A DNA stretch of 35,102 nucleotides from NCBI GenBank assembly GCA_947629945.1, contig CANRFR010000015.1:1-35102 (forward strand), read 5' to 3'. The notes under the pieces were generated by a model. It saw nothing but the letters and a program-made list of their open reading frames with translations. It was not told where the DNA came from and did not search any database. Source of the stretch: an uncultured Clostridia bacterium (GTDB lineage: Bacteria; Bacillota; Clostridia; Oscillospirales; Ruminococcaceae). Both the position numbers and the translations under genes were made by a program. Of the stretch, positions 22,781 through 29,683 are shown one piece after another. Within the stretch, counting starts at the first letter, position 1, and every line of letters starts with the position of its first letter.

Positions 22781-23326
22781 TCAAATGCGCTGCCGAAATT
22801 TCCGCAGCTTTGTCATCGCCGACTTTTCCGATTTCTTGATTTTTTCGCAAAATCTCCTCCATAAATAAGAGCTAAGTTCCGCAGATGCACAAAATTTGTC
22901 CACGAGAGTTATCACAAAGGTCTCCGCGTGACGCGGCAAATGCGGAGTTGCGGGCCACATGTGATTGACTATCATGTCTCCTTCAAGTTCGGTTATGGAA
23001 AACCGCATTGACGCGTTATACAAAGCAACGTTCGCGTGTTCCGCGGGGTGACGGTTTCGTATTCTTTCGTGAGTTTTGCGGTCATAGTAAAACAAGTCGT
23101 GAAGCAGCCCCGCCCGAGCCGCCGCTTTAGCGTCCAGACGAAGAAATCTGCACAATAAAAAGTTGTAATACGAAACGTTCAGCGAGTGCTGAAGCCGCGA
23201 CGTACCTATATGATGCGCAAAGTTCTCAAGCTCGCGTATGTCTCTGCAGTTAAGCAGATCGCCAATGTATGAGTAGAATTCAGAGTTTTCTGAAAGTTCT
23301 TTACGTGATAAAATTGCTTTTAGCAT
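22781..23326 (-). CDS. HD-domain phosphohydrolase-like protein
   Basis: 181 residues. The metal-binding HD pattern is visible: SRLQHSLNVSYYNF supplies the first His, AGLLHDLFYYD the HD pair, RHPAEHANVA a further His, and a later VDKFCASAE a final Asp. This layout matches small stand-alone HD proteins with unknown substrates, probably nucleotide or phosphate-ester hydrolases. The C-terminal 25 residues are strongly basic (KKSEKSAMTKLRKFRQR), which could contact nucleic acid or membrane. A weak AGGCGG site lies upstream. Its own promoter is at 23368-23396, and it diverges from the helicase/GHKL pair. Confidence 0.83.
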   Translation of the reverse strand: MLKAILSRKELSENSEFYSYIGDLLNCRDIRELENFAHHIGTSRLQHSLNVSYYNFLLCRFLRLDAKAAARAGLLHDLFYYDRKTHERIRNRHPAEHANVALYNASMRFSITELEGDMIVNHMWPATPHLPRHAETFVITLVDKFCASAELSSYLWRRFCEKIKKSEKSAMTKLRKFRQRI

Positions 23327-23396: not shown

Positions 23397-23621
23397 ATGT
23401 AAATTTTGGTAGTTTCACCAAAATATTTTTCACTTTATTGTGCAAGCTGACGTGAAGTCATTTTTTCGTATATAAATCCAATATGTTTTTGTCAAATTTT
23501 ACCCAATCTTAATTATAAAAATTAAGCAAATTAGGTAAAAACGTTCAAAATGAAACTATTTTGTTGAAAATCAACAAAAAAACTGAGATTGATTTTTATA
23601 GAATTACCATACCCTCGGCAC

Positions 23622-23650
23622 TTGTAATAATTCACGATTTGGTGTATAAT
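23622..23650 (+). promoter_or_regulatory. Sigma-A promoter for the helicase/GHKL pair
   Basis: TTGTAA (23622-23627) and TATAAT (23645-23650) with a 17-bp spacer. Predicted transcription starts near 23657, giving a leader of about 200 bases before the TTG start of the helicase-like gene. Confidence 0.72.
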
Positions 23651-23860: not shown

Positions 23861-25801
23861 TTGAGCAACTTTAAATGGATGCCGTTGGCGGGTCTGAATT
23901 TGTCTGCGGCAAATCTTGCTGCAGCGGAGAAGCTTCGCAAATTTGGCTTTGTTGTAAATTGCAGCGTGTTTGGTATGGAAAAATATACCAAAGCTTCGTT
24001 GGGCGTTTATGATGTTCTGGCGGAGAAGGAAAATCCGAATATCCTTATAATATCAAATTCAAGCGGACTTTACAGCTGGTACAGAGTACTGGTTACGGGC
24101 ATAGGCGCGGACTTTAAGCTAATTACGGACGCTCCCGATCCGCTGGTTTATCTTAACGAACAGGCAGCGGGACTGTATCTGATATCGTCGGAAACGCTTT
24201 TTAAGGACAACATTCTGAAAAAGAAGCTTGGACGACGCTTTTTGTGGGATTTGGTCATCATTGATGAGGAAATGAACACAAATGTTCCCGATTACAAAAA
24301 ATATAAAGAAAATTTCCCGTGGACGGTTGAAAAACTGATGATAAACACGCCGTTCCCCGCGAAAAATCCCGAGGATAAGGCAAGTTTGACCGAACTCATA
24401 AAGACAGTTCTCGATTCCAAGGAAGTTTCCGGCGATTTCGAGTTTGACGCCTCGGTATCCAAACTGAATGAATCGCTGCCCGTTATGCGGTATTTCGATA
24501 AGTCGGTTTATTCGGGAGACGCGAAACGCAGCGTGTTGTTCGTTGACTACAGCTTTGACGACGACGTTATGAGCAATCTTCGCAGACGCGTCGATTTGCG
24601 TTCCGGCATACCGACGTATAAATACGGAGGAAATGTTTTTGAGGAATATGACTGCGAAAAGTTTGAAAAAGAGAAAAAGATTTATTTAAAGCCGTTTTTC
24701 TCGCGTTCCGATGTTGAGGATCTGCGCGCGTTCGATAAAAAGCTGGATAGTCTGCTGAGTCTGTGCGGCGAGATGCTTACAGAGCCTAACAACCGCATGA
24801 TGATCTACTGCTGCGACAAAAATACTCTCGATTACTTAAACAAGGCGCTTTCGTGCTTATACGGCGCGGAGGTCAGGGTGGCAAGAGAAGAGCTTATGCG
24901 TAACGATGAGATAGTGCGCAAGCTTTCGGTAAACGCGGGAGCGGATCTTCCGAAAATAATGATCGGAACGGACGGATTGGAAACGTTCGGCGACGGTATT
25001 GAGGATATCACCTGTGTGGTGAATTATGAGCTGCCGCTTTCGCCGGTGCTGCTTGAAAGAAGAATGACGCGTCACGGCGGCGCGAACGAGCACAAGAGAA
25101 AATTCTTTATTTTCAGGGACACGAACAAGGCGTTCGATTCCTGCGTACTGAACAAGGTGCTGTATCTGCAGCTTGAGGACGCGTTTTGCGGAATGCTTCC
25201 TACGCGTAACATTCTGCTTGACAGTCCCAAAAAGGCTGAATGTGTGAACGCGCTTATTTCCGATTTGAAATATACCCGCGATTTTGCAAAGCAAGTTGAC
25301 AACTGCCTTGACCTTATTAAGAAAGTCAAGTGCGAATACATCGTTCCGCAGACGGCGAGAATAACTAACGGCAAGCAGCTTGCGGATTTCGTCTCGTCAA
25401 TGCTCGACAGGCTTTATAAGTTTTTCGGGATAAGCGACAGTTCTTCGGAAAGCGATATCGAGACGGCAGTGAATTCATTGGGAGGTCTTTGCGTCGTAAA
25501 CGACGGCAAGCTGGAAAAGGCGCCCGATATCGAACAAATGGCGGCTTCTTTTGAAAGCGACGATTATATGGGTCTTCCTTTCGCGGCGGACGCAATCAAG
25601 GGTCTTTCAGAAGCTAAATCGGAGATTGATGAATTTCACAAGGGCGATGATTTCCATTTGCGTATAAAGCAGGAAATAAGCGAATTGGGCGATTGTATTC
25701 AATACCCGGTTTTGTATGGAATTTGGAAATACAGAGCAAAAGAACAGGATTCCGATCGCTCGTTTAAAGACTATATCAAGATATATAACGACGGCATTTG
25801 A
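23861..25801 (+). CDS. SNF2/DEAH-like helicase with degraded Walker A motif
   Basis: 646 residues from a TTG start, chosen because TTTTGGAGG lies 10 bases before it; an earlier in-frame TTG at 23837 lies upstream of that site. Helicase superfamily 2 order can be followed. At the motif I position is FGMEKYTKAS (Gly38, Lys41), a broken version of GxGKT. NILIISNSSGLYSWYRVLV resembles the SNF2 motif Ia strand. DLVIIDEEMN (Asp135-Glu136) replaces DEAH. NRMMIYCCDK, IMIGTDGLETFGDG, CVVNYELPLSP and LLERRMTRHGG correspond to motifs IV-VI of the second RecA lobe. A helical C-terminal region (about 440-646) matches nothing I know. ATP hydrolysis is doubtful, so it may be a scaffold or use the ATPase next door. 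It is followed after 142 bases by the GHKL protein; together they form a two-gene unit of unknown function. Confidence 0.62.
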   Translation: MSNFKWMPLAGLNLSAANLAAAEKLRKFGFVVNCSVFGMEKYTKASLGVYDVLAEKENPNILIISNSSGLYSWYRVLVTGIGADFKLITDAPDPLVYLNEQAAGLYLISSETLFKDNILKKKLGRRFLWDLVIIDEEMNTNVPDYKKYKENFPWTVEKLMINTPFPAKNPEDKASLTELIKTVLDSKEVSGDFEFDASVSKLNESLPVMRYFDKSVYSGDAKRSVLFVDYSFDDDVMSNLRRRVDLRSGIPTYKYGGNVFEEYDCEKFEKEKKIYLKPFFSRSDVEDLRAFDKKLDSLLSLCGEMLTEPNNRMMIYCCDKNTLDYLNKALSCLYGAEVRVAREELMRNDEIVRKLSVNAGADLPKIMIGTDGLETFGDGIEDITCVVNYELPLSPVLLERRMTRHGGANEHKRKFFIFRDTNKAFDSCVLNKVLYLQLEDAFCGMLPTRNILLDSPKKAECVNALISDLKYTRDFAKQVDNCLDLIKKVKCEYIVPQTARITNGKQLADFVSSMLDRLYKFFGISDSSSESDIETAVNSLGGLCVVNDGKLEKAPDIEQMAASFESDDYMGLPFAADAIKGLSEAKSEIDEFHKGDDFHLRIKQEISELGDCIQYPVLYGIWKYRAKEQDSDRSFKDYIKIYNDGI

Positions 25802-25815
25802 AAAATTATGATGTG

Positions 25816-25840
25816 TAATTGAAAATGGACAATTGATAAT
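25816..25840. repeat. AATTG-rich short repeat between helicase and GHKL genes
   Basis: aattgaaaatggacaatt is the inverted near-copy of the word at 14480-14505, and acaattgataat at its right edge is shared with 18425-18436. The following bases up to 25943 are non-coding and include a GC-rich self-complementary patch (gcctgccgcgcgggc). Confidence 0.45.
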
Positions 25841-25943
25841 ACGCGTGCAGATGCCGCCGAAATTGTCGATTTTTCATTGTGCGTTGCGCCTGCCGCGCGG
25901 GCTAAAGCAGAAAATATTGCGCGGAGAAACGGGGATTAGGGTA

Positions 25944-28900
25944 ATGAGCGGAACTTATGACGCAGTGGAAAAGCTGCTTGGCGATTTTTTTGAACGCAAC
26001 ACAGCCGGCGATAAAGAAGGCGCAAAAACTGTTGTTGCGGAAATAAAGCAGAAGCTGAAAAACGGAGAGTTTGACAGCTCGCCGTTTAAGGATTATTTCA
26101 ACAACCAGTTTGCCGGCAGAGGCGCGGCGAACGTAAATAGTATTTTTAAAGACTATCCGAGAGAATCTATCGTAAGAGAGCTGCTGCAAAACAGCTTTGG
26201 GTGCGATTATGACGACCCCGGCATCAAAATTATGATAGAGTTTCTCGACGAGGGTCAGGTAAAACTTACCTATAACGAGACGGGCTTTAATTTGGAGCAG
26301 GTGTTTTATTATCTTTCCGTCGGCAGAAACGAGGGCGACAAGAAGCGCGAGGGTCGTTTCGGCTTGGGCGCCAAGAGCGTTTTCGCAAACGTGGATTGGT
26401 TTAAAATGCGCTCGAACGAATACTCTTTACGTGTGGTCAACGACGACGGCACGCTGAAAGTGCGTGAGTTGGAGCTTAACGGTCCGCATTTTCCGCACAC
26501 CGAGATAGTGTTCGCGCTGCCCTTGGACGAACAAAAGACTTTGCACGAAAATCTGGTCTCGCTTACCTCCAAAAAGGGAAGCTACATCAATATGGTGGAT
26601 TTGTGCTTCGCGTTCATCAAGAAGAAAAATCTCAAATCGGTCGATGAACGGGAGTGCGTTGAAAGAACTTTCAACATAGCGATAATTAATTTCGGTAAGC
26701 CCGAGGTCGTATATAAGATCCAGCAATACCGCAAAAGTGAAGAGGATATTCCGAAGGTTCGTTTCTTTGAAAACGGCAAAAGCGTCGCTGACTTCATTTA
26801 TTCCGAATACGACGGGTTCGTTTATCTTGTCCCTTACGCAATCTCGGGCGCAAAGCGTGAAGCCGCGAGGGTTTTGATGAACAAGTACAACTACTTCTCC
26901 ACCTTTGAGCTTACGGGCTTTGTGAACGCCTCTAACCAGAAATTTGTAGAGGATCAGCTTTCGGCGTTTTTTGTTTCCGTGCCGAACAAGTTTATCACAA
27001 ATAACCGTTCCGGTATAAAGTACGATTCTCTTGAAGAATGTTCCGAGAAAATCGAGCAGGGCATTTTGTCCGTTACCGAGGAATATAAGAAGCTGTTCGT
27101 GCTTGAGTTGGTACAGCGCCAGGATAACCCTAACCTTTATATGCTTCGCCCGAAGCAGTATGTTTTTGAGTTTTTCTACAATTATATAAATAACAGCGCC
27201 ATAGTTAAGGGACTTCGTGAAAAATTCAGCAGCAGCGTTTCAATTTTGTTCCCGAATTCCGAGATTCCCGTATTGTTTTCCGCTTTACGTGAAAAAGGCT
27301 TCTTTATGGAGAACGATGAAGTATCAAAAGAAGACCACGACGAGGGTATCGCCGCAAAGCAGCTTTATTCCGATATCGAGCAGATGAATAAGTGGTACGG
27401 TGAGGACGACGACCACGTTTTGGTGGCAAAGTACCGCTGGAGCGTTGCGGGCACGAACAAGGGCGGCGAGGAGTTTTTGTACGCGTTCTATAAGGATGAA
27501 CACAAATACTTTATGGCGTCCGACAGCGCCAAGAAGCTTAAGGACTACGAGCTTTCGGCGAATTTCAGAAGCATCATAAGCCTGAAGCTTTCGGAAAGTA
27601 TTCAGAACGGTCAGATTGCCGACGAGGACGCGCTCGCGAAAGCTTTTGAGGTCATAGACCGTATGTTCGGAGAAAATTACCGTATTTCGATGAGGTACTT
27701 CCAGTTGGTCGTTACATCGGGTACGGCGCAAGTTCAGTTTGAAATATCCAAGATCAACATAACCAATCTGAAAAAGGCGTATGATACTCTTGCGGCGCAT
27801 GAGATGAGATTTGAAAATCACCAAATCTTCAATCAGATATCTACGCTTTTGGTGAACTCCTTTACAAACGGCAAAGACACCATAACGTTCCTTAAGCAGA
27901 TCAAATCGCAGGGCGGAGATATCACTCTCGCGCTTGATATCAATAAGCGTTACCGCTTTTCGGTTTACGGAAAACAGTTTATTATCCCGCCGAATATCGC
28001 GACAGCCGATCTTATGGATATCGTAGGAGACATATATGCGCTTATCGAAAGCGGCTTGCTTAACAACCGCGTTTTCGATTTTATGTTCACTTTGGGACGC
28101 TTTAATTTCGACGCACAAGACGTTATGTCCGTGCTGCCCGAGGTGCACAGCGCCGATGAGATTGAGAAAACTTTGGCAAAGATGTATGTTTGCGACCTCA
28201 GTCTTGACAAGATTGCGCTGCTTAATTCCGAAGATAAGCTGATAAAGATTATTGATTTGTCCGCGCCCATATCCGAGGAGGATAAGGCGAAAACGGCAAA
28301 GTTTGTTATTTTGCGCGATGGAATGACGAAGCCTCAGTACGCGGGCTTTGTGGAGTTTATTCTCGCGGGTGAGAACAAAAACCGTCTGCGCGGGTTGTAT
28401 TCGGGTACCGAGGAACCGAATTTGGTGCTTATCGATCAGCTCCCTTATTACTACAAGCCCGTGCCCATGATAAGCCGCGCCGAGTTTGACAGTCTTCGCG
28501 GTCAGGTGCGTAAGATTGCGGGGTATGAAAAGGCAAGTCCAAAGGCTTACCGCAACTATTTCGCGCGCGATGTTAACGCGAAACTTTACGGTTACGGCTG
28601 TATTTGTCCTTACTGCGGACGCGAGACCGGGATACTTAACAGCTTTGTGGTAAAGAAGTTTTCGATAGGTCTTATGAACGGCGAGAAAGAGCAGAAGTTC
28701 AATTTCTCTCTGTACCTTTGCCACAACGACGCGGACGCAGCCGCGGGTTGGCTTATCGACGATGTAAGCATCGGCGGTATGACGCCGTTCATATGGTTGG
28801 ACGAGATGGCTCAGATAGACAGTATTCCGCCGGAGTTCTTGTATTGCAGGATAAAATTCCGCCGTCAGATGAGTTATGACATTTGTGAGCCTAACGCGAG

Positions 28901-29330
28901 CGGCGTATTGCCTATAGAAACTGTTTACGAGGGTACGCCCGAGATTTACGACGTGGTTCTAAGCCCGATGATGGCGGCAAAATGGTTTGAGGACAACACG
29001 GGCAAGCCCGCGCCGTCGGTCGAAAACAGAGTGCCTGTCCGCGCCAATACAGCTTCCGACGAAAAGCCGAAAGCCGCCGAAGCGCGTCCTGCTCCACAGC
29101 AGCGGTCGGCAGAGGTTGGCAATTCCGCGCCGCGTCAGGCGGCTCCCGCTTCCGCACCGCCCAAACGTGCGGGAAGCGCTCCGATGATGTCGACGGGCGG
29201 CGCGCCGCATACGCGTAAGCCGGCGGCTCAGCACGCTACTCATGAGATGAAGCCGCGTTATCCCGCTCCGGAGGGAGTTACTCCCAGAAAACCGCGGGTA
29301 GAGCCTATGCAGGACGACGATAAAAAGTAA
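25944..29330 (+). CDS. Large HSP90/sacsin-like GHKL ATPase with zinc-ribbon-like cluster and disordered tail
   Basis: 1128 residues from ATG at 25944; the longer frame from a TTG at 25833 would read through a dispersed repeat and has no ribosome-binding site. The N-terminal GHKL fold shows the N box VRELLQNSFG (Glu79, Asn83), the G1 position YNETGF (110-115, where HSP90 has DxGxG) and the G2 loop EGRFGLGAKSVF (136-147), close to the GKFGIGFKSVF style of sacsin and MORC-type proteins. The long middle (about 220-880) is unrecognised. A CxCxxC group (Cys886, 888, 891) and a later Cys926-His927 resemble a zinc ribbon. The last 120 or so residues are Pro/Ala/Arg-rich and probably disordered. It is the second gene of a pair with a degraded SNF2-like helicase. 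Similar ATPase/helicase pairings occur in phage defence, but no named system matches. Confidence 0.68.
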   Translation: MSGTYDAVEKLLGDFFERNTAGDKEGAKTVVAEIKQKLKNGEFDSSPFKDYFNNQFAGRGAANVNSIFKDYPRESIVRELLQNSFGCDYDDPGIKIMIEFLDEGQVKLTYNETGFNLEQVFYYLSVGRNEGDKKREGRFGLGAKSVFANVDWFKMRSNEYSLRVVNDDGTLKVRELELNGPHFPHTEIVFALPLDEQKTLHENLVSLTSKKGSYINMVDLCFAFIKKKNLKSVDERECVERTFNIAIINFGKPEVVYKIQQYRKSEEDIPKVRFFENGKSVADFIYSEYDGFVYLVPYAISGAKREAARVLMNKYNYFSTFELTGFVNASNQKFVEDQLSAFFVSVPNKFITNNRSGIKYDSLEECSEKIEQGILSVTEEYKKLFVLELVQRQDNPNLYMLRPKQYVFEFFYNYINNSAIVKGLREKFSSSVSILFPNSEIPVLFSALREKGFFMENDEVSKEDHDEGIAAKQLYSDIEQMNKWYGEDDDHVLVAKYRWSVAGTNKGGEEFLYAFYKDEHKYFMASDSAKKLKDYELSANFRSIISLKLSESIQNGQIADEDALAKAFEVIDRMFGENYRISMRYFQLVVTSGTAQVQFEISKINITNLKKAYDTLAAHEMRFENHQIFNQISTLLVNSFTNGKDTITFLKQIKSQGGDITLALDINKRYRFSVYGKQFIIPPNIATADLMDIVGDIYALIESGLLNNRVFDFMFTLGRFNFDAQDVMSVLPEVHSADEIEKTLAKMYVCDLSLDKIALLNSEDKLIKIIDLSAPISEEDKAKTAKFVILRDGMTKPQYAGFVEFILAGENKNRLRGLYSGTEEPNLVLIDQLPYYYKPVPMISRAEFDSLRGQVRKIAGYEKASPKAYRNYFARDVNAKLYGYGCICPYCGRETGILNSFVVKKFSIGLMNGEKEQKFNFSLYLCHNDADAAAGWLIDDVSIGGMTPFIWLDEMAQIDSIPPEFLYCRIKFRRQMSYDICEPNASGVLPIETVYEGTPEIYDVVLSPMMAAKWFEDNTGKPAPSVENRVPVRANTASDEKPKAAEARPAPQQRSAEVGNSAPRQAAPASAPPKRAGSAPMMSTGGAPHTRKPAAQHATHEMKPRYPAPEGVTPRKPRVEPMQDDDKK

Positions 29331-29335
29331 ACTGT

Positions 29336-29364
29336 AAACCGCCTTGAAAATCTCAAGGCGGTTT
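29336..29364 (+). terminator. Intrinsic terminator after the GHKL gene
   Basis: aaaccgccttga (29336-29347) pairs perfectly over 12 bases with tcaaggcggttt (29353-29364) around a 5-nt loop, 6 bases after the stop codon. The T-run is only three bases long and lies within the stem, so efficiency is uncertain. Confidence 0.75.
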
Positions 29365-29426
29365 CAGTCTGTATAAAAAGTCGGTTATAAAAAAGAAAAA
29401 ATGGTCAACCTCATTGAGTGGTATAT

Positions 29427-29654: not shown

Positions 29655-29683
29655 TTGACAAATGAAACAAAATCTGGTATAAT
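29655..29683 (+). promoter_or_regulatory. Consensus sigma-A promoter for the MetH operon
   Basis: TTGACA (29655-29660) and TATAAT (29678-29683) with a 17-bp spacer. Transcription should start near 29690, giving a very short leader with TTGGAG just before the ATG at 29704. No cobalamin or SAM riboswitch fits in this leader. Confidence 0.85.

Follow-up and report, generated by a model that had tools for sequence, protein, structure and literature searches.

Contig CANRFR010000015.1 from an uncultured Clostridia bacterium, whose 35,102 nucleotides we call the window, carries a pair of adjoining genes that has become part of the core genome in two bacterial genera. Gene 1 encodes a pseudo-SNF2 helicase and gene 2 a GHKL+S5 ATPase. 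We consider it probable that their products form one complex, that the genes descend from a mobile, conflict-type SNF2-GHKL pair taken up into the core genome, and that the complex now acts as a growth-linked housekeeping machine. An initial annotation had described a degraded SNF2-like helicase paired with a GHKL ATPase and had set the locus in an anti-phage context. The description was borne out by an SNF2 fold, degenerate motifs and a GHKL+S5 fold. The anti-phage reading found no support: the pair is core in two genera, has a distribution that one gain explains, sits among housekeeping neighbours under a housekeeping operator and has no plasmid matches. The pair is laid out as follows.

23861..25801, + strand: gene 1, a 646-residue pseudo-SNF2 helicase with a TTG start.
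23972..23992, + strand: degenerate Walker A GMEKYTK, residues 38–44 of gene 1 (gene 1 alignment).
24263..24271, + strand: motif II DEE, residues 135–137 of gene 1 (gene 1 alignment).
25055..25078, + strand: motif VI ERRMTRHG, residues 399–406 of gene 1 (gene 1 alignment).
25944..29330, + strand: gene 2, a 1128-residue GHKL+S5 ATPase with a C-terminal Cys motif and a disordered tail (open reading frame, or ORF, and fold).
26178..26192, + strand: GHKL N box E79–N83 (ELLQN) of gene 2 (gene 2 alignment).
26271..26288, + strand: G1-box equivalent YNETGF, residues 110–115 of gene 2 (gene 2 alignment).
26349..26384, + strand: G2 box EGRFGLGAKSVF, residues 136–147 of gene 2 (gene 2 alignment).
28605..28721, + strand: Zn-like C888xxC891...C926 of gene 2 (gene 2 alignment).
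28998..29327, + strand: variable, probably disordered Pro/Ala/Lys-rich tail of gene 2 (predicted local distance difference test, pLDDT).

Gene 1 combines a helicase fold with degenerate helicase motifs. The helicase assignment stood or fell with the fold, and a two-lobe SNF2 fold was found across residues 3–458, followed by a helical C-terminal part of about 190 residues. We aligned 57 homologues: 34 from the window's genus (g1), 22 from a second genus (g16), which we take to be Ruminococcus-like, and one from a third (g99). None of the 57 combines an intact Walker A GK[ST] with an intact Walker B DE. GK[ST] is absent from 34/34 g1 proteins, 30 of which keep DE (E136); the Walker B Glu is lost in 22/22 g16 proteins, four of which keep GK[ST]; and the g99 protein keeps DE and not GK[ST]. 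Other motif positions are retained, among them K41 (34/34 in g1, 19/23 in the other genera), D135 (57/57), and R401 (57/57) and R404 (53/57) of motif VI. Pfam Helicase_C scored 19.5 bits on gene 1, short of its cut-off of 23.5. Judged by these motifs, the helicase active site looks dead across the family, and the protein should not be a normal ATPase. It is also acidic (isoelectric point 5.1, net charge -16), which does not favour the initial idea that gene 1 is a nucleic-acid sensor.

Gene 2 keeps the hallmarks of a GHKL ATPase, with one departure. Its fold match runs from a GHKL domain into an S5/transducer domain, and TopoVI-B and GyrB match this fold equally well. Among 55 aligned proteins (32 from g1, 23 from g16), N-box residues E79, L80, Q82 and N83 are invariant, as are G2-box residues E136–G140, G142 and K144–F147 (EGRFGxGxKSVF). 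At the G1-box position all 55 carry YNExGF, which aligns with YPDKGF of an accessory relative, L086, described below; the Asp of a DxGxG G1 box is absent, with Glu/Asn there in 55/55. Three cysteines (C888, C891 and C926) are likewise invariant in all 55, and a CPxC aligns there in both accessory relatives. The tail has pLDDT of about 23–33 over most of its length and is missing from several homologues. The NCBIfam profile P_loop_sacsin (NF047352) matches window gene 2 at E 6.5e-5 and 23.3 bits against a curated cut-off of 50, and matches 9/9 gene 2 members at E up to 0.1; in a profile search of the PDB, the protein outside its GHKL part matched no PDB sequence. Because gene 1 has lost its active site and gene 2 has kept its GHKL residues, the ATP-using partner of the pair, if there is one, would be gene 2.

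The two genes occur together wherever they were seen, as the initial annotation had anticipated. A contig scan returned 39 loci, all in metagenome-assembled genomes titled Oscillospiraceae, Ruminococcaceae or Clostridia, several of which were sampled from animal guts. At 35 loci the two genes are immediate neighbours, and the remaining four contigs start inside gene 2. The genes also adjoin in 23/23 loci fetched from the other genera (22 of the 69 g16 holders and the one from g99); in the three g16/g99 loci measured, the spacing is -1 to +1 nt.

The pair is core to g1 and g16 and rare beyond. It is held by 41/43 g1 genomes, including 27/27 of the good ones, in a set that largely comprises the assemblies of the 39-locus scan, and by 69/71 g16 genomes, including 41/41 of the good ones. 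A family-level search found it in 6/197 genomes and 3/125 genera. At order level gene 2 occurs in 16/394 genomes and gene 1 in the same 16, with a 44-bit partial helicase match to gene 1 in one extra genome; gene 2 falls to 2/391 genomes at class level and 1/398 at phylum level. The initial annotation had named stable core genes with a known housekeeping role as what would speak against its defence idea; the pair turned out to be core, which goes most of the way against that idea, although no such known role turned up.

A single gain explains this distribution. We named 28 genomes for an RNase J tree and 27 were matched, holder G601 giving no match. All 10 holders in the tree lie on one side of a single branch (support 100/98), with both outgroup genomes on the other; one change suffices, and 0/500 shuffles were as low. 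Divergence within the pair follows that of RNase J. The two locus sets shared 24 genomes, one of which lacked a hit and was left out; over the other 23, Mantel correlations among distances for RNase J, for gene 2 and for as much of gene 1 as lies no more than 1.5 kb from gene 2 were 0.89–0.93 (0/2000 permutations). Median ratios of nonsynonymous to synonymous substitution rates (dN/dS) were 0.088 for gene 1 (21 pairs) and 0.079 for gene 2 (39 pairs), indicating purifying selection.

Neither core protein had a match in a plasmid search, gene 2, the one protein searched there, had none in viral contigs, and PHROGs gave none at E up to 0.01. The sole 'phage' match of either protein is an UNVERIFIED scaffold from human faeces filed as 'Bacteriophage sp.' (MT835670.1; gene 2 48%, gene 1 32%). 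This record carries the pair together with bactofilin-, deacetylase- and ABC-transporter-like genes (read by eye), ordered as in host genomes, and no phage gene was recognised among its longer ORFs. We rejected it as phage DNA on these two grounds and read it as host chromosome.

In g1 the pair shares an operator with growth genes. Two elements precede gene 1 in the window.

23559..23579, strand-neutral: 21-bp palindromic operator TTTTGTTGAAAATCAACAAAA (upstream-region comparison).
23622..23650, + strand: promoter TTGTAA-N17-TATAAT (upstream-region comparison; also in the promoter scan).

The promoter is present in 31/31 g1 upstream regions. The operator lies within two mismatches of TTTTGTKSANNNTSMACAAAA at 24/31 g1 loci and in 0/620 shuffled sequences, although the 24/31 is not an independent test, as the pattern was drawn from these same regions; its genome-wide excess is. 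More broadly, across g1 a 21-bp palindrome of approximately TTTTGTGCA-N3-TGCACAAAA occurs ahead of genes more often than expected. Eight g1 genomes contain 198 sites, whereas the reversed pattern has 20. Of 88 of these 198 sites that were fetched (L192–L279), 11 fall inside ORFs of at least 150 residues (68% for random places), and 54 have such an ORF starting no more than 400 nt downstream (17% for random places). Inspection by eye placed the operator ahead of mraZ in six of the eight genomes (G199, G180, G094, G231, G232 and G225), by a NuoE-like subunit at five loci, pgi at three, rpsJ at three and motB at two, and near gapA, dnaA and minD in one genome each; many further genes showed no clear theme. 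This breadth speaks for growth control and not for division in particular.

Position supplies the link to growth genes where the operator does not. Division and cell-wall (dcw) genes, read by eye as mraZ, rsmH, ftsL, pbp, murE and mraY, follow the pair in 14 of the 23 g16 and g99 loci, two of them with two extra genes in between. The operator precedes mraZ with at most two mismatches in four of the five g16 loci measured, and precedes both the pair and mraZ in g99. The growth-gene link thus runs by operator in g1, by position in g16 and by both in g99. Other known regulons did not fit. We rejected heat-shock and SOS control since the 31 upstream regions, of 420 nt each, held no CIRCE, CtsR or LexA-like pattern. 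Rex, suggested by gapA- and hydrogenase-type genes, was rejected as the regulator because the operator's half-site spacing differs from that which we assume for the Rex box.

The core pair has accessory relatives whose helicase motifs are intact. The g1 genome G214 carries the core pair and a second pair (L086:6063-11863), an 816-residue helicase whose gene overlaps that of a 1117-residue GHKL protein; an additional GHKL match like this one was seen in 1/43 g1 genomes. Another pair lies on the Lysinibacillus capsici plasmid pFN9B (NZ_CP106864.1, OCI51_RS26020-RS26025; 810 and 1081 residues). Both accessory pairs run SNF2 then GHKL and share the motifs DEVGTGK[ST] and DE[AC]H, seen as DEVGTGKT and IDECH in L086 and as DEVGTGKS and VDEAH in pFN9B. 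In contrast to these intact motifs, those of core gene 1 are degenerate. The pFN9B pair resembles the core pair in a PxRNxxL motif after motif VI and a CPxC near the GHKL C-terminus. The two differ in setting: the window pair lies in housekeeping surroundings, whereas the plasmid pair stands behind PD-(D/E)XK nuclease and UvrD genes, which we take to be AddAB-like, and is followed by genes for AbrB, an integrase and an Eco57I-type methylase. The plasmid region as a whole (L307, NZ_CP106864.1 29116-49709) is possibly an undescribed defence system.

Each core gene scores closer to its accessory counterparts than to controls. Hidden Markov models (HMMs) of core gene 1 (57 proteins) and core gene 2 (55), run with HMMER filters off, gave the helicases 66.2 bits (L086) and 78.5 bits (pFN9B) against 51.7 for an unrelated SNF2 protein (L119), and the GHKL proteins 34.3 and 30.6 bits against 3.6 for HtpG, with MutL not listed. 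Profile comparison gave 103.7 (L086) and 127.0 (pFN9B) for gene 1 against 74.8 for L119, and 54.4 and 50.7 for gene 2, with HtpG at 26.8 and MutL at 27.2; hhalign probabilities for gene 2 were 80% (L086, 72 columns) and 71% (pFN9B, 65 columns). Core and accessory pairs alike are adjacent genes in SNF2-then-GHKL order. The specific relation stands out more in gene 2 than in gene 1, with gene order and size adding to it. The simplest reading is that the dead-helicase core pair arose from a mobile pair of the conflict type whose helicase still worked, a direction of descent that we infer. The initial defence idea thereby survives one level back, in related accessory pairs of which one sits beside plasmid restriction genes.

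We propose that recruitment took place in an ancestor of the three genera, within one Oscillospirales family, with vertical inheritance since. The GHKL+S5 protein would be the only ATPase, a dimeric clamp closing on ATP in the manner of MutL, GyrB, TopoVI-B and Hsp90. The SNF2-shaped protein would no longer translocate; its role would be that of an obligate subunit, for scaffolding or for client recognition. The complex would act in a growth-linked housekeeping process and not in inducible phage defence.

Several observations weigh against this recruitment model. Gene 1 exceeds a generic SNF2 protein only modestly (66–79 against 52 bits, with one control), the relation of gene 2 to the accessory GHKL proteins rests mainly on the G1/G2 region, and two accessory pairs were seen in all. 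Both genes evolve fast for a core machine, gene 1 at about 3.7 times and gene 2 at about 1.9 times the RNase J rate. With Glu/Asn in place of the G1-box Asp, ATP hydrolysis by gene 2 is not certain. The operator count is not independent, as said, and in g16 the operator does not precede the pair (1/22 within three mismatches); nine of the 23 g16 and g99 loci do not adjoin dcw genes. Finally, 12 gene 2 match rows contain stop signs (four in the g1 search, eight in the g16 search). An open frame of at least 1021 residues is present in nine of these and the other three are pieces; judging the rows together, we take them for genes that are split or that end naturally.

A dedicated folding or assembly chaperone is a possible but doubtful alternative. 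The GHKL protein would be Hsp90/sacsin-like and the pseudo-SNF2 protein its co-chaperone, with no nucleic acid involved, a scheme that overlaps with the recruitment model as a specific form of it. The sacsin-profile score falls well under the curated cut-off, TopoVI-B and GyrB match the fold equally well, the partner has an SNF2 fold, and neither a CIRCE nor a CtsR site turned up in the upstream regions. By eye, HtpG is already present in the genome, which also speaks against this scheme. MutL, likewise read by eye, is there too, and we rejected the pair as a replacement of either.

We regard a vertical, genus-wide anti-phage system as unlikely. The pair would sense invading nucleic acid or phage proteins, the GHKL clamp would act on them, and the system would have become fixed in the core genome. 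The setting of the pFN9B pair beside nuclease, UvrD, integrase and methylase genes favours such a role, as does the fast evolution of gene 1. So do likenesses in PADLOC: DrmD matches 9/9 gene 1 members (best E 2e-10) and HmaA 8/9 (5e-10), with 3.7e-5 for the window, and TmtA profiles match some gene 2 members (best E 4.6e-8). Matches to HmaA, DrmD, BrxHI and TmtA were never full-length and covered helicase or GHKL stretches only, amounting in the window to 110–165 positions for gene 1, in profiles about 1000 long, and to 75 of 1486 for gene 2. Pfam recognised no cognate PADLOC partner among the window neighbours, and the literature yielded no description of TmtA. Against a defence role stand the presence of the pair in all good g1 and g16 genomes, its congruence with RNase J, its growth-gene operator, and the missing plasmid and, for gene 2, viral matches.

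The neighbourhood of the pair adds to this case. Among the window neighbours Pfam names SpoIVB, RNase J, GdpP, DnaB, a TilS-type protein, a phosphoribosyltransferase, FtsH, a HIGH nucleotidyltransferase and MetH, and it found no nuclease or methylase there. It found no nuclease family in the pair either, in keeping with the initial annotation, which had seen no nuclease motif. The expected location among defence genes did not hold up: housekeeping neighbours, no PHROGs match and no plasmid match led us to reject a defence-island reading of the window. By eye, flanking genes at other loci vary or look housekeeping, and g1 loci often have an HD-like gene divergent upstream and an operon that we read as rnf downstream.

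A decaying remnant, a former helicase-GHKL system drifting out of function, is very improbable: helicase motifs lost differently by genus and the stop signs in some match rows would suit it, and dN/dS of about 0.08, invariant GHKL motifs and gene 2 in 68/68 good g1 and g16 genomes oppose it.

Two further features flank the pair in the window.

22781..23326, - strand: divergent 181-residue HD-domain-like protein (Pfam HD 20.9 bits, just under the cut-off of 22).
29331..29368, + strand: hairpin 3' of gene 2, a possible terminator (-23.3 kcal/mol, z -8.4).

The HD-like gene is a frequent g1 neighbour, found at 23 loci including the window. The hairpin is not among the terminator-scan predictions, and an Rfam search of the window for a leader RNA gave no match. 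Farther downstream, a perfect TTGACA-N17-TATAAT promoter (29655-29683) stands ahead of the metH activation-domain and metH genes. At one other locus (L040:5702-9268), TerY-like vWA, PP2C-like and kinase-like genes, read by eye, lie a few kilobases after the pair; we did not accept this trio as a partner, having seen it at that locus only.

The pair offers a concrete view of how conflict genes may become housekeeping ones, a question rarely testable. One lineage, made up mostly of gut bacteria, appears to have fixed a conflict-type pair, lost the helicase site genus by genus and gained growth control, and intact and dead versions coexist in G214. Both products are large and uncharacterised, belong to the core of two genera and lie outside the cut-offs of Pfam, no family of which covers either of them above threshold. 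The literature that we searched, with most subscription papers outside its scope, contained no paper on the core SNF2-GHKL pair.

Known systems share parts of this arrangement. Gene 1 has the two-lobe SNF2 fold of the INO80, ISWI and RapA ATPases; unlike them it is acidic and has lost Walker A, Walker B or both in every homologue. Gene 2 resembles the GHKL domain of sacsin and Hsp90 in its N and G2 boxes, its P_loop_sacsin match and its fold, and differs in scoring under the curated cut-off and in having an SNF2-like partner. A sacsin study argues that a related N domain is an active ATPase (PMC9880540). There is also a parallel with MORC/paraMORC operons. Iyer et al. (2008; PMC2292703) describe prokaryotic MORC/paraMORC GHKL genes beside superfamily II (SF-II) helicases, SWI2/SNF2 types included. 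The loci in their account are restriction-modification ones that move laterally and carry nucleases or methylases, and the GHKL clamp is proposed to loop DNA; they also give a MORC-specific S5 motif, GhXhhpXXRhl. As in those operons, the core pair joins a GHKL+S5 ATPase to an SF-II (SWI2/SNF2) helicase-family gene; unlike them, it has no nuclease or methylase next door and is inherited vertically, being neither laterally mobile nor patchy. We tentatively suggest, as a conjecture that may well prove wrong, that it is a bacterial counterpart of MORC: a mobile pair turned indispensable core machine, in which a pseudo-helicase scaffold and a GHKL clamp, controlled by the operator that also governs the dcw cluster, would link growth to the assembly of the chromosome or the envelope.

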